This document shows positions 47,206 to 56,642 of a stretch of 64,000 bases of DNA, piece after piece (within the stretch, counting starts at the first letter, position 1; each line of letters opens with the position of its first letter). The stretch lies in the NCBI GenBank assembly GCA_947452455.1, contig CANGBX010000002.1, forward strand, positions 186,001 to 250,000. The letters are read 5' to 3'. Below the pieces are notes generated by a model. The model searched no databases and was not told the origin of the DNA. It saw only the letters and a list, made by a program, of their open reading frames with translations. The stretch comes from Beijerinckiaceae bacterium. GTDB taxonomy: Bacteria; Pseudomonadota; Alphaproteobacteria; Rhizobiales; Beijerinckiaceae. A program made the translations under genes and the position numbers.

Positions 47206-48237
47206 TTATTGGAGATCGGGCTTGATGGTGGACGCGCGTTCCATCCAAGCGGGGATCGGCAATTTCTTCTCGCGCAGGAAAGCCGGATTATAGAGTTTTG
47301 ACGCATAGCGAGCGCCGCCATCACACAAAATCGTCACGATCGTATGGCCGGGGCCCAATTCTTTGGCGAGCCGCATGGCGCCTGCAATATTGATCGCGGC
47401 TGAACCACCAAGCAGCATGCCCTCTTGCTCGGCGAGATCGAACAGGATGGGCAGCGCTTCTTCATCAGAAATCTGGAACGCCATATCAATCGGCGCATCT
47501 GTGAGATTGGCGGTGATGCGACCCTGACCAATGCCCTCTGTAATGGACGAGCCTTCGGCCTTCAGTGATCCATGCGCATAATAATGATAGAGCGCCGCGC
47601 CCATCGGATCGCTGAGCGCGATTTTGATATTCTTGTTGCGCTCTTTGAGCGCCATGCCGACGCCAGCCAGCGTGCCGCCTGTCCCCACAGCGCAGGTGAA
47701 ACCATCCACTTTGCCGTCGGTCTGCGCGTAAATCTCCGGCCCCGTTGTCTCGTAATGGCCGCGCCGATTGGCGACATTGTCGAATTGATTGGCCCAGATC
47801 GCGCCTTGGGCATGTTCTTTGGCAAGCCGCTCAGCGAGGCGGCCGGAGACTTTCACGTAATTATTCGGGTTCGAATAAGGCACGGCTGGCACTTCGATCA
47901 GCTCTGCCCCTTGCAGGCGCAGCATGTCTTTTTTTTCCTGCGACTGCGTGTCGGGAATGATGATGACCGTTCTGAAGCCCAAAGCATTGGCGACCATAGC
48001 CAGCCCGATGCCCGTATTGCCGGCGGTCCCCTCGACAATCAGCCCGCCCGGATTGAGGAGACCCTTGGCCATGGCGTCCCGCACAATGGCCAGAGCCGCC
48101 CGATCCTTCACGGACCCGCCGGGGTTCATGAATTCGGCTTTTCCCAATATTGTGCAGCCTGTCGCCTCCGAGGCGTGGCGCAGCTTGATAAGGGGCGTGT
48201 TGCCAATGGCGGCAAGGACGTCTGAGGCGGTCGTCAT
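47206..48237 (-). CDS. cysK: Cysteine synthase A
   Basis: The 343-residue PLP enzyme makes cysteine from O-acetylserine and sulfide. Signs: IGNTPLIKL, NPGGSVKDRAAL with the PLP lysine at residue 44, VEGTAGNTGIGLA for substrate binding, VGTGGTLAGVGMAL for phosphate binding. C-terminal LREKKLPIPAWMERAS is typical of the alphaproteobacterial type. The ATG at 48237 starts MTTASDVLAAIG. It is the promoter-proximal gene before sseA and divergent from the chrR-like gene. Confidence 0.95.
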   Translation of the reverse strand: MTTASDVLAAIGNTPLIKLRHASEATGCTILGKAEFMNPGGSVKDRAALAIVRDAMAKGLLNPGGLIVEGTAGNTGIGLAMVANALGFRTVIIIPDTQSQEKKDMLRLQGAELIEVPAVPYSNPNNYVKVSGRLAERLAKEHAQGAIWANQFDNVANRRGHYETTGPEIYAQTDGKVDGFTCAVGTGGTLAGVGMALKERNKNIKIALSDPMGAALYHYYAHGSLKAEGSSITEGIGQGRITANLTDAPIDMAFQISDEEALPILFDLAEQEGMLLGGSAAINIAGAMRLAKELGPGHTIVTILCDGGARYASKLYNPAFLREKKLPIPAWMERASTIKPDLQ

Positions 48238-48315: not shown

Positions 48316-48343
48316 TGATCCACTGTGGAGCTTGTCGCGTAAT
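48316..48343 (+). promoter_or_regulatory. Candidate extracytoplasmic-function sigma promoter of the chrR-like gene
   Basis: TGATCC (48316-48321), 16 bases, CGTAAT (48338-48343). TGATCC is the known -35 element of sigma-E/ChrR-type promoters in Rhodobacter sphaeroides. The same spacing and sequence recur before the photolyase operon (56157-56184). Confidence 0.6.
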
Positions 48344-48450: not shown

Positions 48451-49125
48451 TTGACACGCATGTCCATTGGATCTGAGGGGCGGGGCGAGGCTGTTGATAC
48501 GCTTCTGGCCGCCTATAGCGCCGGTTCGCTGGATCCGAGCCTTCACGCACTTGTGGCATCTCACCTCATTCTGAGACCTGAGTCCCGCCATTTTGTCGCT
48601 GCTCTGGAAGATATGGCTGGCATGGAACTCGAAAGTGTCGAGCCCGCACCATTGTCTGACCGTGAAAAGCGTCTGGCCGCTATTTTTGCAGCCGAGCCCG
48701 CGCAGCGCAAGGAGGTCGCCCCCTTGGTCGCTGGTTCCGACATTTTACCGTCCCCGCTGCGCCATTATCTGGGTCGCGGCTTTAACGATATCCGTTGGCG
48801 CACCAAAATCCCTGGCGTGAAGGAATTCCGCATTGAGGATAAAGGCCGTGGTGATGCCAGCCTGCTTTGGGTTCGCGCTGGCCGCAGGATGCCGTCCCAT
48901 ACCCATGAGGGCTCTGAAGTGACCCTTGTGTTGCAAGGCGGCTTTTCAGACGTGACAGGGCATTATGGCCGTGGCGATATTGCCATTGCCGAAGCCGATC
49001 TTGACCACAAACCGATTGCCGATGAGGGCAAAGATTGTCTCTGCTTTGCAGTGACAGATGCGCCTCTCCATCTGACGGGACCTTTCGGGCGCGTGCTGGA
49101 ACATCTTTTCGGAGAAAAGCGCTGA
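48451..49125 (+). CDS. ChrR-like cupin anti-sigma factor with degenerate zinc-binding domain
   Basis: The protein (224 residues from TTG 48451; an ATG three codons later is also possible) matches ChrR, the zinc protein that holds sigma-E until singlet oxygen appears. In the N-terminal anti-sigma domain only His38 of the H/HxxxCxxC set remains: the pattern reads SHLILRPESRH, with Arg42 and Ser45 where ChrR has cysteines, and no N-terminal HH. The C-terminal cupin is intact (SHTHEGSE: His150, His152, Glu156; His186 in LDHKP; and DCLCFA). No sigma gene is adjacent. It may be a cupin sensor, or a poorly binding regulator of an unlinked sigma factor. Confidence 0.85.
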   Translation: MTRMSIGSEGRGEAVDTLLAAYSAGSLDPSLHALVASHLILRPESRHFVAALEDMAGMELESVEPAPLSDREKRLAAIFAAEPAQRKEVAPLVAGSDILPSPLRHYLGRGFNDIRWRTKIPGVKEFRIEDKGRGDASLLWVRAGRRMPSHTHEGSEVTLVLQGGFSDVTGHYGRGDIAIAEADLDHKPIADEGKDCLCFAVTDAPLHLTGPFGRVLEHLFGEKR

Positions 49126-49895
49126 TCCCTTACCGCGCCAAACCGGAACATGGTCTGGCGCTGGTGACAGGTGCTTCATCGGGTATTGGCGCGGAAGTCG
49201 CGCGCCGATTGGCAGAGCAAGGTTTCAAAGTCATCGCTGTGGCGCGTCGCGCGGAAGAGCTCTCGAAGCTCGCTGCTGAGGCAACACGTGGTGAAATCAT
49301 TTCTGCACCTGGTGACGTGACGGATCGTGCAGCCATGCGTGATCTGGTTGAACGCATTGAGCGCGAGCACGGCGCCATTGCGCTCGCCTTCCTCAATGTG
49401 GGCACTTACTTCCCAGACAGCGATGATGATTTGGGTGGCGATGGGTTCCGCAAAACCTTTGCCGTCAATCTTGATGGTACCGTCAATCTGATCGGTCCTC
49501 TGGTGCGCGCGATGAAAGTGCGCGGGCGTGGGCAGATAGCCGTCAATTCATCTGTTGCTGGTTATGGCGGTCTGCCGCAGTCAATTGCTTATTCATCGTC
49601 CAAGTCAGCGCTGATTGTGATGTGCGAGGCGTTGAAATTCGATCTCGACAAACTCGGCATTACGATTCAAATCGTCTGTCCCGGCTTTGTGAAGACACCG
49701 CTCACCGACAAGAATGATTTCCCCATGCCCTTCCTTATCTCTGTGGAAGAGGCGGGTGCCCGTATTCTTGATGGGTTTCAGAATGGCGGATTCGAGATCG
49801 CATTTCCAAAGCGCATGGCGTGGCTGTTGAAATTCATCAACCTGCTGCCTTATTCGGCTTATTTCTGGCTCGTGGGCAAAACAACGGGCCGCTAA
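49122..49895 (+). CDS. Short-chain dehydrogenase/reductase
   Basis: The SDR has the Rossmann motif GASSGIGAEVARRLAE, NVGTYF, the catalytic SSVAG...YSSSKSAL set (Ser, Tyr and Lys) and VCPGFVKTPLTD, with a hydrophobic C-terminal end (WLLKFINLLPYSAYFWLVG). No ATG lies at the expected start. The most natural is CTG at 49122, which overlaps the chrR stop (CTGA) and has GGAGAAA seven bases upstream. ATG 49035 would add 29 residues inside chrR; later in-frame Mets remove the cofactor motif. The role within the singlet-oxygen module is unknown. The stop overlaps that of the MFS gene. Confidence 0.85.
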   Translation: MIPYRAKPEHGLALVTGASSGIGAEVARRLAEQGFKVIAVARRAEELSKLAAEATRGEIISAPGDVTDRAAMRDLVERIEREHGAIALAFLNVGTYFPDSDDDLGGDGFRKTFAVNLDGTVNLIGPLVRAMKVRGRGQIAVNSSVAGYGGLPQSIAYSSSKSALIVMCEALKFDLDKLGITIQIVCPGFVKTPLTDKNDFPMPFLISVEEAGARILDGFQNGGFEIAFPKRMAWLLKFINLLPYSAYFWLVGKTTGR

Positions 49896-51208
49896 GCGCG
49901 CTCGATTTGTTGACGCAAACGCGCTTGCATCTCCTCATCGATGGGAAAGCGCCACATCAGCGCGGCGGCGCCTATTTTCAAGACAATCGGCAGGCCAGCA
50001 TAAAGAAATCCGAGCATGGCAAGGCCGCTATCTGTGCGCAGGCCCGCTGCCGGATCAAAACCCGTCGCCCCAAGAAGCGGAAATGCGACACCAACCGCAA
50101 GTGCAAGTGCGAGTTTGGTCGCCAATCCCCAAGCTGCGAAATAGAGCCCCGAGCGCTGTTCGCCTGTGGCGGCTGTGTCGACATCGATCACATCGGCCTG
50201 CATGGCTGGTGGCAGTACAAGGTCAGCGCCAAGAGCCAACCCCGTGCCAATGCAGACAGCCGCGAAAATGGCAGTCTGTCCTGTGCTCAGGAAAGGCGCT
50301 GGCAGGAAGCAGGCGCAAGCGAGCAACATGCCGCAACACCACGCGACATGTTTGGATGTTTTGCGTGCAAGCCATAGCCAGAAGGGCACGCCGATCAGCC
50401 CGCAGATAAAATAGAGAACAAGCAAAGGTCCGGCTGCATCGCCTGCGCCCAATTTCTCGCTCACATAGAAGAGGAACAAAGTCGCGGGAAAGCCATTGGC
50501 AAATCCGTTGAGCAAGAAAGCAAGGATGAGCCTGATGAAGGGCCGATTGGCAAGAAGCTGCAGGAGCCCCTGTTTCAGCGGCAGCGGATGTTTGGAATGA
50601 TCTTTGGGCTCGCGCACCAACGTGACGCTCAGCAAAGATGCGAGCGGCAAAGCGATCAGCGTGAATAGGCCGAGCGCCATAAGCACCGCGCCTTCGCCGG
50701 AAAAGCCCGCCATCGGGACGAGCACTTGCGCGAAGAGCGCGAGCAATGTGCCGATCAGCGCGAACGTCTCGCGCCAAGCAGTGACACGTGCGCGGCCCGC
50801 ATAATCGGAGACCAGTTCTGCGCCCCATGCAGCATAGGGCACAAGGGCTGCGGTTGAGGCGATGGAGAGAATGACGCCCCAGAAGGTGAGATAGAAAAGA
50901 CCCGCACCAGCAGGGGGCGTGAAAACGAGATAAGTGCAAACTGCGGTTGGAAGAGAAGCCGCGAGCACCCAGAGGCGCCGGCGCCCGAAGCTCGGGCGCC
51001 AGCGATCAGCAAATAGCCCCGTGAAAGGATCGGCCAAAGCATCGATGATGCGCACAATGAGCAGAGCCGAGCCCACCGCTGCAATGGGCAGCATCAATTC
51101 GCGTGCATAAAAGGCCGGAACCAGCACATAGAGCGGCAGCGTGAGTAACGCGAGTGGCAATGCTGGAAGCGCATAAGCAGCCAATTCGCTCTTGCGGATT
51201 GTGCTCAT
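49892..51208 (-). CDS. MFS transporter, GPH (Na+/melibiose symporter-like) family
   Basis: The 438-residue inner-membrane carrier has twelve hydrophobic helices. Family motifs: AYALPALPLALLTLPLY at the N-terminus, DALADPFTGLFADRWRPSFGRRR after helix 2, and CGLIGVPFWLWLARKTSKH in the middle. Members of the GPH family carry sugars or other small solutes with cations; carriers of this group lie beside cfa and DUF1365 genes in singlet-oxygen regulons, where they are thought to move lipids or precursors (inference). Fifth and last gene of the leftward operon; 10 bases after cfa. Confidence 0.9.
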   Translation of the reverse strand: MSTIRKSELAAYALPALPLALLTLPLYVLVPAFYARELMLPIAAVGSALLIVRIIDALADPFTGLFADRWRPSFGRRRLWVLAASLPTAVCTYLVFTPPAGAGLFYLTFWGVILSIASTAALVPYAAWGAELVSDYAGRARVTAWRETFALIGTLLALFAQVLVPMAGFSGEGAVLMALGLFTLIALPLASLLSVTLVREPKDHSKHPLPLKQGLLQLLANRPFIRLILAFLLNGFANGFPATLFLFYVSEKLGAGDAAGPLLVLYFICGLIGVPFWLWLARKTSKHVAWCCGMLLACACFLPAPFLSTGQTAIFAAVCIGTGLALGADLVLPPAMQADVIDVDTAATGEQRSGLYFAAWGLATKLALALAVGVAFPLLGATGFDPAAGLRTDSGLAMLGFLYAGLPIVLKIGAAALMWRFPIDEEMQARLRQQIERA

Positions 51209-51218
51209 GGGGTGCGAT

Positions 51219-52475
51219 TCAGCTTTTCGCGAAAGTCATCTGGCGAACATCAATCGTGCCTGCGCGAAAACCCGCCTCGCAATAAGACAGATAATATTCC
51301 CACATGCGTCGGAAATGTTCATCAAAGCCCATCGGCGTGAGTTGCGGCCAAGCTTTGCGGAAACTGTCGCGCCAATGCGAAAGTGTGACCGCATAATCGA
51401 GGCCAAATATACGCTCTGCTGACAGCGACAGGCCATGCTTATCGCCCATATTGCGCATAATGGTGGGGGTCGGCAGCATGCCGCCGGGGAAAATATATCG
51501 TCGGATGAAATCGATATCGCCGCGATAATGCGGGAAAATTTCGTCCTGAATGGTGATGACCTGCAAACCGGCTTTGCCGCCTTCTTTCAGGCGATCCCGC
51601 AATTGCCGGAAATAGACCGGCCAATATGCTTCGCCAACAGCTTCAAACATTTCAATGGAGGCAATGCGATCAAAAACACCTTTTTCATCGCGATAATCCT
51701 GCATTCTAATTTCGACACGATCTGACAGGCCTGCTTTGCGCATGCGTTCAGTCGCAAATTCATACTGCTCCTTGCTGATGGTAAGGCCGGTGACACGCGC
51801 GCCAATTTCGCCTGCCGCATATTCGGCAAAGCCACCCCAACCGCAGCCGATTTCGAGCACATGATGTCCGGGCTGCAAATCAATGTCGCGCGCGAGGGCT
51901 GCATATTTGGCGCGCTGCGCATCAGCAAGATTTTTCGCGTTATCGGTGAAGAGAGCAGATGAATAGGTCATCGTGCCATCAAGCCAAGCCGAGTAGAATT
52001 GATTGCCAAGATCATAATGGGCGTGAATGTTGCGCCGTGATCCGGCCTTGGTGTTACGATTGCGCCAATGCAGGAAGCGATGGAAGAGGCGCACCAGCGG
52101 TTTGCCATCCAGTAATTTATGAATAATGGGCTGATTGACGCAGAAGAGTTCAAGGAAATGCGTAAGGTTGGGGCTTTCCCAATGGCCCTTCAAAAAGGCT
52201 TCCGCAATACCGACCTCGCCACCTGCCGCCAATTCATTGGCGAAATCGAAATCATGCACGATCATCTGTGCATCCGGGCCATCTTCTCGACCTTGAAAAC
52301 GCAAGCTGCGACCATCCGGCATTTGCACATCCAGTGAGCCACGCTCGAGCATGAGCATGAAGTCCAGCGCGCGGCGAACAGCAAAAGGATAATCTTTAGC
52401 AATCGCAGCGACATTATCTTTGCTGACAAGGATATGATCATGCGCGATGGATTGGGTGCTCGTCATCACATTCAT
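51219..52475 (-). CDS. cfa: Cyclopropane-fatty-acyl-phospholipid synthase-like methyltransferase
   Basis: The 418-residue SAM-dependent enzyme adds a methyl(ene) group at the double bond of unsaturated acyl chains in membrane phospholipids. It has AHYDLGNQFYSAWLDGTMTYSS, the SAM motif VLEIGCGWGGFAEYAA, TGLTISKEQ, EMFEAVGEAYW and FIRRYIFPGG, all standard for Cfa. In Rhodobacter sphaeroides a close relative in the ChrR regulon acts in making methylated and furan fatty acids instead of simple cyclopropanes; which applies here is open. Start overlaps the DUF1365 stop by 4 bases. Confidence 0.92.
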   Translation of the reverse strand: MNVMTSTQSIAHDHILVSKDNVAAIAKDYPFAVRRALDFMLMLERGSLDVQMPDGRSLRFQGREDGPDAQMIVHDFDFANELAAGGEVGIAEAFLKGHWESPNLTHFLELFCVNQPIIHKLLDGKPLVRLFHRFLHWRNRNTKAGSRRNIHAHYDLGNQFYSAWLDGTMTYSSALFTDNAKNLADAQRAKYAALARDIDLQPGHHVLEIGCGWGGFAEYAAGEIGARVTGLTISKEQYEFATERMRKAGLSDRVEIRMQDYRDEKGVFDRIASIEMFEAVGEAYWPVYFRQLRDRLKEGGKAGLQVITIQDEIFPHYRGDIDFIRRYIFPGGMLPTPTIMRNMGDKHGLSLSAERIFGLDYAVTLSHWRDSFRKAWPQLTPMGFDEHFRRMWEYYLSYCEAGFRAGTIDVRQMTFAKS

Positions 52476-53302
52476 AGGCGTGCATCCGGAAAAGCGTTAT
52501 TATCAGGCCCTTGATAACTAAGAGGGGCTGGCGGAATGGGGCGGGGGCGAATGCGCAGACCTTTCAGATAGAGGCGCATGGCTTCCCAGTGGATAGCTGC
52601 GACGATTTTGAAGGTCAGCAGCGGAATACGCAAGAAATTTGCAAGCAGGGTGGCTGTGGTCGCCTCCTCGCGCTGCCCGTTGAAGGTGGCAGCCAAGATC
52701 GGGCCTTGCGCATCGGTCTCGAGGATTCGCAGTTTCAGCGTCTCACCGGGTGGCTGCAGACGGAAATGATAGCGCATCGACATATCGAGGAAGGGCGAGA
52801 CATAGAAAATCTTGTTACGTTCTTGTCGCACACCGCCTGCATTGGCTTCGCCCGCCACGATGGGCGCCACATAAGTATGCGCCTCACCGAATGTGTTGCG
52901 CACTTCATAGACAAGAGCCGCCATTTCGCCATCTGCGCCATAGCAATAATAGACCGACAGCGGATTGAAGGTGAAGCCGAGCACGCGCGGATAGCAAAGC
53001 AGAAAGACGCGTCCGCCCGTCAGATCAATGCCCGCATCGGCCAATGCGCGATTGATATAGGCGCGCAGGTCAGAACCATCTCGCGGTCCATGATCCTTCG
53101 GTGAGAAGGAGAGAAGATTGAAGCGTCCAACCGACAAAAGAGGCGAGAGGCGGCTGACTTCATCCAGGCGGTCGAGATCGATCAGCGTCGAAAAAACATC
53201 ATAGGTGAAGCGATGCGTTACGGGCTTCATGCGCGCATGCATCACCGGCCCGCGATAAATCGACAGGCTGGCATGCGGCGGCTTGAAGCACGCTTCATTC
53301 AC
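52472..53302 (-). CDS. DUF1365 family protein
   Basis: The 276-residue protein shows the DUF1365 pattern: SLYRGPVMHARMKPVTHRFTYDVFSTLIDLD over the start, SFSPKDHGPRDG, LLCYPRVLGFTFNPLSVYYCYG, and KIFYVSPFLDMSMRYHFRLQPPG. DUF1365 genes regularly lie between cfa and a FAD oxidoreductase gene and have been implicated in membrane fatty-acid remodelling. The exact reaction is not established from sequence. It overlaps both the FAD gene stop and the cfa start by 4 bases. Confidence 0.92.
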   Translation of the reverse strand: MNEACFKPPHASLSIYRGPVMHARMKPVTHRFTYDVFSTLIDLDRLDEVSRLSPLLSVGRFNLLSFSPKDHGPRDGSDLRAYINRALADAGIDLTGGRVFLLCYPRVLGFTFNPLSVYYCYGADGEMAALVYEVRNTFGEAHTYVAPIVAGEANAGGVRQERNKIFYVSPFLDMSMRYHFRLQPPGETLKLRILETDAQGPILAATFNGQREEATTATLLANFLRIPLLTFKIVAAIHWEAMRLYLKGLRIRPRPIPPAPLSYQGPDNNAFPDARL

Positions 53303-54651
53303 TGAACGAGCTCCACTTCGCGATTGGCTTCAATGGGCATGGTTGAAATCGGCAAAGGATCTGTGTCGCGCATATTGGCCCAGGGTGCGGGGCAACCCAA
53401 GCGCGCGGCTACCGAAATGCCGGAGAGCAGGCCATCTTCATGGAAGCCGTGGCCGGTCCATGCGCCTGCGAACCATGTGCGGCGCACACCTTGTATCTCA
53501 TCAAGCCGCTTGCGGGCCGCCAGCGCAGCCGTATCAAATTGCGGATGCTCGTAATTGAACCGCGCGAAAGTCAGTTCGGGCTTGGGCTCGAAGGGCGGGT
53601 TCAATGTCACAAAGAGCGGCTTGCTCTCGTCGATCTTTTGTAGACGGTTCATCCAATATGTCACCGCACAGGCGCGATCATCGACATCGCCTTCGCGCAG
53701 GAAATTCCATGAGGCCCAGGCCGCACGACGTTTGGGCATGAGGGCGAGATCGCGATGTAACCACACATCATTGGGCGCATAGCGACAGGCTGCGAGAATA
53801 GCCTGTTCATTCGCATCCGCATCAGCCAGTGCTTTCAAGGAATCTGGTGCATGCGCTGCCATGACAACATGATCGAAGTTTTCGACGCCGCCCTGCGCAT
53901 CGCGGATCGTCACATGATCTTCATGGCGTGTGATGGCGGTGGCGCCGCAATTGAGGCGCAGCCTGTTGCCGAAGAGCTCAGCCAGTTTGCGCACATATTC
54001 GCGGCTGCCGCCTGAAACCGTGCGCCACCGCGGCCGGTCCCATTGCAAGAGACAATGATTGTCGAAAAATTCAATGAAGCTGGTCGCAGGGAAATTCAGC
54101 ATTTCGCGTGGGCTGGTCGACCAAATGGCAGCTCCCATCGGCACCAGATAATCGCGGCACAGACGCTGCGAAAATCCATGACGATCAAGATAATCTTGCA
54201 ATGTGCCGGGCCCCACAGTCGCAGCGCGCGCATCTTTGATCGCCTGTTTCTGGAAGCGTGGAATTTCAAGCAGCAGTGCAAGGTAGGACGGCGAGAAGAG
54301 ATTGCTGCGCTGGGCAAACAATCCGTTGATCACGCCTTTGCCATCCTGACCGCACCATTCGAATTTGCCGCGATCTGCCGAGACCGAAAAGCTCATATCC
54401 GACAATTGCGTTTTGACGCGCAGATAATCAAACATAGCGGTGAGGTTTGGGTAATTCTTTTCGTTATAGACGATAAATCCCGTATCAACCGCGATTGGCG
54501 TGCCATCGTAATTGATGTCAACCGTGGCAGTATGGCCGCCTGCACGCGCTTCGCGCTCATAGAGAACGACCTCATGACCATAGCTCTCTTGCGACAGGGC
54601 GAGCGCTGCCGCATGTCCGGTAATTCCTGTGCCGACGATGGCAATTTTCAT
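53299..54651 (-). CDS. FAD-dependent amine-oxidase-like oxidoreductase (COG2907 type)
   Basis: The 450-residue flavoprotein starts MKIAIVGTGITGHAAALALS (FAD-binding Rossmann fold), then LYEREARAGGHTATVDI, DTGFIVYNEKNYPNLTAMF, and the C-terminal FAD-contact TWFAGAWTGHGFHEDGLLSG. This is the COG2907 protein that accompanies DUF1365 and cfa in many alphaproteobacteria; oxidation or desaturation of fatty acyl chains is a plausible function (inference). I chose the ATG at 54651, directly after the photolyase stop. It overlaps DUF1365 by 4 bases. Confidence 0.92.
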   Translation of the reverse strand: MKIAIVGTGITGHAAALALSQESYGHEVVLYEREARAGGHTATVDINYDGTPIAVDTGFIVYNEKNYPNLTAMFDYLRVKTQLSDMSFSVSADRGKFEWCGQDGKGVINGLFAQRSNLFSPSYLALLLEIPRFQKQAIKDARAATVGPGTLQDYLDRHGFSQRLCRDYLVPMGAAIWSTSPREMLNFPATSFIEFFDNHCLLQWDRPRWRTVSGGSREYVRKLAELFGNRLRLNCGATAITRHEDHVTIRDAQGGVENFDHVVMAAHAPDSLKALADADANEQAILAACRYAPNDVWLHRDLALMPKRRAAWASWNFLREGDVDDRACAVTYWMNRLQKIDESKPLFVTLNPPFEPKPELTFARFNYEHPQFDTAALAARKRLDEIQGVRRTWFAGAWTGHGFHEDGLLSGISVAARLGCPAPWANMRDTDPLPISTMPIEANREVELVQ

Positions 54652-54652
54652 A

Positions 54653-56125
54653 TCAGGCCATATCTGTTTTTGTTGAAGCCAGCGCCGCCAGCGCGCGGTC
54701 GCGTGCGCGTGCATGATCGACCATCGGCTTGGGATAAGTTTTGCCCAGAGTCACGCCAGCCGCCTTCAAAGCAGCATCAGGCGCGTTCCAAGGTTCGTGA
54801 ATCCAATTGTCCGACAATTTGGCAAGCTCTGGAACCCATTGGCGCACATAGGCCGCTTCGGGATCAAACTTCTGCGCCTGCAAGGTCGGATTGAAAATAC
54901 GGAAGTAAGGCGCTGCATCTGCACCCGAGCCTGCGACCCATTGCCAGCTTGCCGTATTATTGGCAGGGCAGGCATCGCAGAGCGTATCCCAAAACCATTC
55001 TTCGCCGATGCGCCAATCACCCAGGAGATCTTTCACAAGGAAAGAAGCAGCAATCATGCGCACACGATTATGCATTGTGCCAGTGTGCCAGAGTTCGCGC
55101 ATGCCGGCGTCCACGATCGGGTAGCCCGTCTGGCCTCTCTGCCAAGCCCGAACGTCTTTTGCGTCGAGATCGATCCATGGAAAAGCATCGAATTTCGATT
55201 GGAAGTTGCGCGTGCCCAGATCAGGGAAATGATAGAGCAGGTGATAGGCAAATTCACGCCAGCCGATTTCACTCAAAAATTTATCGGCATCACGCGCTGG
55301 CACGTCTCCGCTTGCTTGTGCATGGCGTGTTGCATGCCAGACCTGACGCGGCGAGATTTCACCAAAGCGCAAATGCGGCGAGAGATTGGAAGTTGAGGGC
55401 ACATCGGGACGATCGCGCAGAGTGCCGTAATTTTTGGCGCGCGTTTCAAGAAATGCTGTGAGGCGCTCTTGCGCCCCTTTTTCTCCCGGCTGCCATGTGT
55501 CACGCAAACCGCCGGCCCAATCCGGCTTTTTCGGCAGGAGGCCGAGTTTGTCGAGCGCCACGCGCTTCGGGGCTTTGTCCGGCCAATCTGCACTTTTGAT
55601 TTTGGTGGCGCGCGGCAAGGGGCCATCAGGCTCACCCTTTGCCAGAGCAGCACGCCAGAACGGAGAATAGACTTTGAAAAAGTCTCCGCTCTTGGTTTGC
55701 ACATCCCAAGGCTCGTGCAGAAGCTGGCCGTTAAAGCTCTTCACCACATGTCCGGCATCGCTGAGCGAGGCTTTGATATCGCGGTCGATGGCAATCTCGG
55801 CCTGACCATAGCGGCGCGTCCAACAGACCGCGCCGGCATCTGTTGACTTGGCTAGGGCCGTGATGAGGGGCAGGGCCGCACCTTGCAAGATGTCGAGCCG
55901 GGCGCCTGCTTTTTCGAGGGCGGCGGAGAGAGCGGCGAGCGAGTGATGCAGCCACCAGCGCGAGGCGCCTCCCAGAGCCCTGAGGCCCGGGCTCACTTCA
56001 TCATGAATATAGATACAGATAAGGGGGCTTGCGCTGTCGCGTGCAGCTTGAAGGGCCGGGTGGTCGGAAAGGCGCAGATCGTCACGAAACCAGACGATGG
56101 CAGGTCGGGAAGTGACTGGCGGCAT
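54653..56125 (-). CDS. phrB: Class I CPD photolyase
   Basis: DNA photolyase uses blue light to repair cyclobutane pyrimidine dimers. The 490-residue protein has an N-terminal antenna domain (IVWFRDDLRLSDHPAL, CWTRRY) and the FAD/DNA domain with TSNLSPHLRFGEISPRQVW, FLSEIGWREFAYHLL, the WQRGQTGYPIVDAGMRELW repair site, HNRVRMIAASFLVKDLLGDWR and ASWQWVAGSGADAAPYFRIFNP. I chose the ATG at 56125 (MPPVTSRPAIVW), since the predicted transcription start (about 56150) lies downstream of the other ATG at 56155. Operon leader for the five leftward genes. Confidence 0.95.
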   Translation of the reverse strand: MPPVTSRPAIVWFRDDLRLSDHPALQAARDSASPLICIYIHDEVSPGLRALGGASRWWLHHSLAALSAALEKAGARLDILQGAALPLITALAKSTDAGAVCWTRRYGQAEIAIDRDIKASLSDAGHVVKSFNGQLLHEPWDVQTKSGDFFKVYSPFWRAALAKGEPDGPLPRATKIKSADWPDKAPKRVALDKLGLLPKKPDWAGGLRDTWQPGEKGAQERLTAFLETRAKNYGTLRDRPDVPSTSNLSPHLRFGEISPRQVWHATRHAQASGDVPARDADKFLSEIGWREFAYHLLYHFPDLGTRNFQSKFDAFPWIDLDAKDVRAWQRGQTGYPIVDAGMRELWHTGTMHNRVRMIAASFLVKDLLGDWRIGEEWFWDTLCDACPANNTASWQWVAGSGADAAPYFRIFNPTLQAQKFDPEAAYVRQWVPELAKLSDNWIHEPWNAPDAALKAAGVTLGKTYPKPMVDHARARDRALAALASTKTDMA

Positions 56126-56156
56126 TCTGGAACTTTTGTCCTCGGTCGGCCACAAA

Positions 56157-56302: not shown

Positions 56303-56376
56303 TGGAGGCCTCGCCCGGAATCGAACCGGGGTGCAAGGATTTGCAGTCCTCTGCGTAGCCACTCCGCCACGAGGCC
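56303..56376 (-). tRNA. tRNA-Cys (GCA)
   Basis: The acceptor stem GGCCTCG pairs with CGAGGCC; the anticodon loop CTGCAAA gives GCA; the T arm is CCGGGTTCGA-like (CCCCGGTTCGATTCCGGG). The discriminator T is followed by an encoded CCA. 74 bases. Confidence 0.97.
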
Positions 56377-56566: not shown

Positions 56567-56642
56567 TCCCCGATAGCTCAGTTGGTAGAGCAGACGACTG
56601 TTAATCGTCTGGTCGCAGGTTCGAGTCCTGCTCGGGGAGCCA
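56567..56642 (+). tRNA. tRNA-Asn (GTT)
   Basis: The acceptor stem TCCCCGA pairs with TCGGGGA, with discriminator G and encoded CCA. D arm GCTCAGTTGGTAGAGC, anticodon loop CTGTTAA (anticodon GTT), T arm CAGGTTCGAGTCCTG. 76 bases. Confidence 0.98.

Follow-up and report, generated by a model that had tools for sequence, protein, structure and literature searches.

The window analysed here, a stretch of 64,000 nucleotides from a Beijerinckiaceae bacterium (assembly GCA_947452455.1, contig CANGBX010000002.1, positions 186,001–250,000), carries on its forward strand chrR (48451–49125), the gene of a ChrR-family protein of 224 amino acids that lacks the zinc ligands and which we propose to be an anti-sigma factor. 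The gene starts with TTG at 48451, and an alternative ATG is found at 48460. The protein consists of an anti-sigma domain (48472–48690, forward strand; helices at residues 8–24, 29–41, 44–62, and 71–80) and a cupin domain (48751–49074, forward strand; Cupin_7 43.3 bits, cut-off 27). Upstream of the gene lies an ECF11-type promoter-like element, TGATCC-N16-CGTA (48316–48341, forward strand), which is the only match in the window, 0.05 being expected.

Divergently oriented to chrR is its neighbour cysK (47206–48237, reverse strand; PRK10717 556 bits), which is not thought to belong to the regulon. Directly 3′ of chrR follows a short-chain dehydrogenase (SDR; 49125–49895, forward strand; adh_short 152.8 bits, start codon unsettled) that is RSP_1087-like by family. 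The reverse strand then codes for a GPH/MFS symporter that is RSP_1089-like by family (49892–51208; MFS_2 262 bits), a cyclopropane-fatty-acid-synthase-like (CFA) methyltransferase that is by family similar to cfaS (RSP_2144) (51219–52475; CMAS 280 bits), a DUF1365 protein taken as RSP_1090-like (52472–53302; PF07103 263 bits), RSP_1090 presumably being a DUF1365 protein, a FAD amine-oxidase-like protein taken as RSP_1091-like (53299–54714, start maybe nearer 54651; Amino_oxidase 78 bits), and a phrA-like protein of the photolyase/cryptochrome family (54653–56155; 337 bits with PRK10674 and 379 bits with TIGR02766, in each case less than the cut-off of the model). A tRNA-Cys (56303–56376, reverse strand) and a tRNA-Asn (56567–56642, forward strand) are located upstream of the photolyase gene.

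The RpoE regulon of R. sphaeroides comprises rpoE, chrR, cfaS, phrA, RSP_1091, RSP_1090, RSP_1089 (GPH symporter), RSP_1088, RSP_1087 (SDR), rpoHII, and others (PMC7074977, in excerpt), and full activation by singlet oxygen depends on RSP_1091 and RSP_1090 (PMC3818230, in excerpt). The cluster in the window appears to unite chrR with counterparts, by family only, of cfaS, phrA, RSP_1091, RSP_1090, RSP_1089, and RSP_1087.

Zinc and cupin ligands

With the TIGR02451 profile (anti_sig_ChrR) the protein scores 173 bits (cut-off 124.5) over profile positions 5–214 of 216, that is over both domains, and with the equivalog model NF051881 (StressantisigmaChrR) 124.8 bits, below the cut-off of 300. The solved ChrR 2z2s_B matches at 4e-44, residues 14–208 of the window protein aligning with 7–199. 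In ChrR of R. sphaeroides the zinc is bound by His6, His31, Cys35, and Cys38 and is required for inhibition (PMC6852236, in excerpt). The alignment to 2z2s_B places His38 (48562–48564) at the position of His31, Arg42 (48574–48576) at Cys35, and Ser45 (48583–48585) at Cys38; His6, one residue beyond this pairwise alignment, is matched by Glu13 (48487–48489) in the multiple alignment. The ZAS motif H/C-x24/25-H-x3-C-x2-C is absent and, as had been claimed in the original prediction, the zinc cysteines are gone and the equivalent of His31 is the sole ligand left. The claim of an intact cupin metal site is borne out as well, as His141, His143, Glu147, and His177 are all present as His150, His152, Glu156, and His186, and the CxC motif Cys187/Cys189 is found as Cys196/Cys198. 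By profile and cupin the window protein is a member of the ChrR family and, without this motif, is not counted in the zinc-binding (ZAS) group.

Zinc loss and linkage among relatives

When the own genome and 60 relatives were searched, 49 of the 61 yielded a TIGR02451 match at 1e-6. The first alignment comprised 47 ChrRs, 18 sigma-linked and 29 unlinked; all four ligands are kept in 17 of the 18 linked proteins, and in all 28 unlinked proteins with an N-terminus His6 and both cysteines are missing. Named genomes were scanned with a single pattern taken from the region of the CxC motif in zinc-less proteins, which gave 88 relatives, 80 of them kept. Besides metagenome-assembled genomes of Beijerinckiaceae and Hyphomicrobiales these loci include Stappia, Roseibium, Pannonibacter, Bosea, and Alsobacter; one locus (Ruegeria, L167) is canonical and linked, and the other 79 are zinc-less. 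The only sigma factor match in the flanks of the 79 zinc-less loci has 32% identity and is ~10 kb away (L149); contig ends in fragmented assemblies can hide a neighbour, and at least 1.5 kb upstream are covered at 70 of the 79 loci. A divergent cysK is found beside chrR at 59 of the 79 loci, an SDR within 1.5 kb downstream at 67, and the genes for CFA, DUF1365, FAD oxidase, and photolyase follow in the same order at 41, some loci being cut by contig ends. Among 25 named isolate genomes searched, all 24 with a zinc-less ChrR carry one ECF11-like sigma factor at 1e-35, and no chrR was found within ~1.5 kb to either side of these 24 sigma loci.

Rows without N-terminus (L055, L127) and rows from the same places as others (L087 and L006, same as L013 and L058) were excluded, and near-identical rows were removed from the trees and promoter sets. 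An alignment for the variant at the CxxC motif had been proposed; it shows that all 85 non-redundant unlinked ChrRs with an N-terminus, the own protein included, lack both cysteines, and the cupin ligands are kept in all 86 non-redundant unlinked ChrRs. A sequencing error or gene decay is thus ruled out. The zinc loss, first noticed in a single protein, characterises a large clade whose chrR lies apart from rpoE.

The scan of named genomes favours zinc-less forms, and to counter that bias 150 genomes were evenly drawn from the order. ChrR was found at 1e-20 in 93 of them and an ECF11-like sigma factor at 1e-34 likewise in 93, one each. The 96 ChrR loci (80 new and 16 earlier ones) divide into 43 without a sigma factor within ~1.8 kb (40 lacking both cysteines, three with all four ligands, HHCC) and 53 sigma-linked loci, of which 46 of the 52 readable ones keep the CxxC motif and six lack one or both cysteines (L270 is frame-broken and was omitted). 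All 40 zinc-less proteins retain the cupin ligands, and all 40 genomes that encode them hold one ECF11-like sigma factor at another place (upstream coverage of L274 is only ~0.5 kb). Of the 40 sigma factors that reach 51% identity, 39 belong to genomes with a zinc-less ChrR. There are two exceptions: G147 has an orphan-type sigma factor (G147:C53:155382–155927, 53% identity) and no ChrR match at 1e-20, and G043 has a zinc-less ChrR and a sigma factor of only 47% identity. Two further genomes, G017 and G018, have the sigma factor and no ChrR; we do not accept a true loss here, as assembly gaps are likely: in G017 the cysK match begins at base 2 of the contig and the chrR-side end is missing, and in G018 cysK was not found at 1e-80.

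The six linked ChrRs that miss one or both zinc cysteines are L046, L268, and L282 (genomes G055, G193, and G162), L219 (G126), and L217 and L220 (G191 and G160). In a quick tree they form about three lineages apart from the clade of the window protein. Zinc loss is thus not limited to unlinked ChrRs; it is general only in the unlinked clade.

The anti-sigma domain without the zinc cysteines

The vacated ligand sites drift: Cys35 is replaced by K, S, N, R, or T and Cys38 mostly by N or S, and 66 of 86 relatives have no cysteine at all between residues 12 and 79. All 85 non-redundant unlinked proteins with an N-terminus have His38, as do 36 of the 40 zinc-less proteins of the order-wide sample, four having lost it. 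The histidine of the motif is reportedly not required for the anti-sigma activity of ChrR and its kin (PMC2893595, in excerpt), and the retention of just this ligand speaks against our preferred explanation. Two other positions have changed together with the ligands. Residue 15 (Val15 in the window protein, 48493–48495) is hydrophobic in 36 of 40 zinc-less proteins vs none of 54 others, and residue 48 (Phe48, 48592–48594) is aromatic in 34 of 40 vs three of 54. According to these residue tables we suggest that a hydrophobic cap, aliphatic at residue 15 and aromatic at residue 48, may replace the zinc site. The fold itself is predicted with high confidence: pLDDT values of the AlphaFold model are 93–97 over residues 11–80, and Foldseek puts ChrR chains of 2q1z and 2z2s in its first six places, with a TM score of 0.85–0.87 by target length. 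In addition, L18, Y22, G25, L27, L34, V35, H38, and L39 are invariant in 17 aligned sequences.

Sigma factors of the own genome

The own assembly (3.05 Mb, 95.6% complete) contains no second ChrR at E 0.01, and the idea that a second, intact ChrR might exist elsewhere has gained no support. A general sigma factor model gave nine matches, six of them above the cut-off: RpoD, FliA, two RpoH types (one by PRK07500), the ECF11-like sigma factor, and EcfG, the other ECF sigma factor of this genome, which is flanked by NepR and PhyR. Three matches fall short of this cut-off: two LuxR-type response regulators and a protein of 156 residues. The latter (L010:1441–1908, reverse strand, contig C1) carries sigma region 4 together with weak PhyR-like matches and is perhaps a second sigma mimic.

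A search for rpoE–chrR elsewhere in the genome had been suggested and returned one RpoE-like sigma factor, located on another contig (C3:61760–62338; RpoE 2q1z_A at 5e-47) without an adjoining chrR, so that rpoE is indeed not beside the chrR of the window. No anti-sigma factor was found among the five proteins tested at this locus, that is the sigma factor and its four neighbours, an IalB-like protein just above the cut-off (22.2 vs 22.1 bits), an acetyl-CoA synthetase, a DUF1223 protein, and a transglycosylase. With one ChrR and one unpaired ECF sigma factor, the genome thus has two lone genes at separate places. The IalB-like gene (own copy L210:7866–8516) is divergent to the orphan sigma gene, and a relative is present at all 52 other orphan sigma loci (L059–L086 and L168–L191; counted by presence).

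Promoter-like elements

The motif TGATCY-N16-CGT is taken to be the RpoE promoter, a reading supported by its position ahead of linked rpoE genes: TGATCY-N16-CGT[AC] precedes 15 of 19 of them (17 in a looser form). The same pattern precedes 81 of 85 non-redundant zinc-less chrR genes, for which 0.49 would be expected by chance (looser form TGATC-N17-CGT, resampled sequence), and none of 53 orphan sigma genes. In the order-wide sample the element lies before 27 of 40 zinc-less chrR genes (35 with N16–18), before the sigma gene in 32 of 53 linked pairs (37 with N16–18), and before chrR in none of these 53 pairs. The division is not entirely clean, as 16 of the 53 orphan sigma genes are preceded by the half-site TGATCY, with 7.9 expected by shuffling, and this excess may point to some weak ECF11 input there; with loose spacing the ECF11 pattern occurs before two of 53 (1.1 in shuffled sequence). 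Patterns for EcfG, RpoH, and sigma-70 are not clearly above shuffles in the 53 upstream regions.

The own genome contains 12 matches to the element and none to the reversed pattern. Apart from the match at chrR, one begins 56 bases upstream of an RpoH-type open reading frame, and others lie shortly upstream of frames for DUF2177, DUF3422, DUF2269, and PNPOx-like proteins. As open reading frames of at least 100 amino acids cover eight of the 12 sites, some matches are due to chance. No exact element is found at the genes from photolyase to symporter in the window, which is at odds with the preferred explanation; the photolyase gene of the named relatives has the element in 19 of 49 cases, the copy in the window being without. 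Before cysK it was found at none of 59 loci.

Phylogeny and co-variation

In the careful ChrR tree the zinc-less proteins are all on one side of a branch with 100/100 support (86 rows vs 19), and in the careful sigma factor tree with EcfG as outgroup the orphan sigma factors are on one side of a 97/85 branch (53 vs 19). The ChrR trees are without outgroup. In the order-wide quick tree SH-aLRT is 79 for the zinc-less branch and 99 for the canonical branch. The zinc-less L274 falls between them, at the base of the canonical side, which does not fit the preferred explanation, and three unlinked HHCC proteins as well as the six linked cysteine losers are placed among the canonical ChrRs. As the zinc-less unlinked ChrRs are essentially one clade, zinc loss and unlinking amount to about one event, which weighs against the preferred explanation.

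Across the 42 genomes that have ChrR, the sigma factor, and CysK, the distances of the first two correlate with r = 0.85, and with 0.80 when CysK, a weak proxy for the species tree, is held constant; none of 500 permutations reached this correlation. Restricting ChrR to its first 75 residues yields r = 0.80 (partial 0.73). Orphan sigma factors have Leu80, Arg82, and Arg87 (numbering of L006:1429–2007), presumably near region 2.3–2.4, in 53 of 53 cases and linked rows in none of 20. Between the two groups residues 165–172 are identical or almost identical. The sigma position that we map to Lys38, which we assume to be important for ChrR binding, is Asn in the own sigma factor and mixed among the orphans, again an argument against the preferred explanation.

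Discussion

We suggest, with a probability of about three in four, that the window protein is a conserved zinc-free anti-sigma factor of the ECF11 type, with a hydrophobically packed helix bundle, a cupin as sensor, and chrR as the sole autoregulated partner. It would act on the RpoE/ECF11-like sigma factor encoded far off on C3. Its four-helix anti-sigma domain would fold without zinc, the cap taking the place of the His2Cys2 site, and would sequester the sigma factor as ChrR and the zinc-free RseA do. Under photo-oxidative or peroxide stress the metal-binding cupin together with the products of the RSP_1091/1090-like genes could lead to release or turnover of ChrR. The freed sigma factor would then transcribe chrR, rpoH, and other targets from TGATCY-N16-CGTA promoters and leave its own gene alone, so that feedback would be exerted via the anti-sigma factor only. 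Of the options left by the original prediction, binding of sigma without zinc is favoured by the orphan ECF11-like sigma factor, the co-occurrence in 40 of 40 genomes, and the distance tracking, the binding itself being our deduction from these sequences.

More tentatively, and with odds somewhat short of even, we propose that this branch of the Hyphomicrobiales has rebuilt the ECF11 photo-oxidative switch: zinc was given up, the cupin (with the fatty-acid enzymes) became the sole sensor, the operon was split, the sigma factor came to be expressed from another promoter, and only the anti-sigma factor is induced, turning a mixed feedback into a purely negative one.

Zinc could also have been a dispensable structural prop that was lost by ordinary drift, with sensing and feedback unchanged. 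This is compatible with a role as anti-sigma factor, and the motif is missing in ~44% of class I anti-sigma domains and in ~28% of the soluble ones (PMC7406223, in excerpt); linked ChrRs, too, have lost cysteines in about three other lineages. Nevertheless we consider plain drift rather unlikely, as the loss in the large clade accompanies the substitutions at residues 15 and 48, the unlinking, and an ECF11 element before chrR and not before the sigma gene.

Considerably less probable is that ChrR has parted from the sigma factor and become a cupin-based sensor or enzyme expressed under ECF11 control, with regulation of the sigma factor by other means. Such an escape had been considered in the original prediction, and it would agree with the loss of the ligands needed for inhibition by ChrR of R. 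sphaeroides (PMC6852236, in excerpt), with the distance of chrR from rpoE, and with the missing full ECF11 element at the orphan sigma gene. On the contrary, the anti-sigma domain is conserved as well as the cupin, its fold is confidently predicted, its first 75 residues track the divergence of the sigma factor, and the co-occurrence is complete; the ECF11-type element before chrR likewise disfavours an escape. It is very improbable that the domain still binds zinc via other ligands as a usual ZAS protein, since, despite the widely kept His38, most relatives lack any cysteine in the domain, the other three positions drift, and His38 itself is lost in four of 40. Equally improbable is control of another sigma factor (EcfG, RpoH, or FliA): the genes are unlinked and no operon fixes the pairing, but EcfG already has NepR and PhyR alongside, and the orphan is the only ECF11-like sigma factor found and co-varies with ChrR.

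The proposed zinc-free anti-sigma factor shares with ChrR of R. sphaeroides (sigma-E/ChrR, ECF11; 2q1z, 2z2s) the two-domain fold, the cupin ligands, the CxC motif, the position of His31, regulon-like neighbours, and an ECF11-type element as before linked rpoE genes. It differs in the lack of His6, Cys35, and Cys38, in the position of chrR outside of the sigma operon, and in the orphan sigma gene without full ECF11 element. RseA of E. coli has, to our knowledge, no cupin. RseA/sigma-E is similar in kind, with a helical anti-sigma bundle that is kept together by protein contacts in place of zinc, and differs by cleavage in the membrane-spanning region (PMC6852236, in excerpt). Soluble class I anti-sigma domains without Hx3Cx2C are also alike in being soluble and free of the zinc motif; the survey describing them took anti-sigma factors up to 10 genes away from an ECF sigma factor and would thus miss an unlinked ChrR; a zinc-free ChrR is not mentioned there (PMC7406223, in excerpt). 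Zinc-free anti-sigma domains are already known and common, and among the matches listed in the open-licence literature searched we recognised none that deals with a ChrR free of zinc or unlinked from its sigma factor.

What the zinc of ChrR does in the response to singlet oxygen is unknown according to a 2019 review, which also reports that ChrR85, a form without the cupin, inhibits and gives no answer to singlet oxygen (PMC6852236, in excerpt). A peptide study points to the cysteines that bind the zinc, arguing that their oxidation may be a key event (PMC6432622, in excerpt). If the zinc-free pair still answers to singlet oxygen, oxidation of a zinc-thiolate would not be the trigger. As it has kept the cupin and regulon-like genes and lacks the zinc site, this clade is a natural experiment on the role of zinc in singlet-oxygen sensing, and it has cultured genera with Stappia, Roseibium, Pannonibacter, Bosea, and Alsobacter. 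It also suggests a route by which the operon of an autoregulated sigma factor can be broken up and the regulon still be retained.

Two genomes of the order-wide sample, G121 (L256, L292) and G158 (L260, L293), encode two ChrRs each, one HHCC and one zinc-less with His31 replaced by Tyr, and have one ECF11-like sigma factor each at 1e-34. Their HHCC proteins have no sigma factor in the stretch examined, and SDR- and CFA-like frames were seen nearby by eye.
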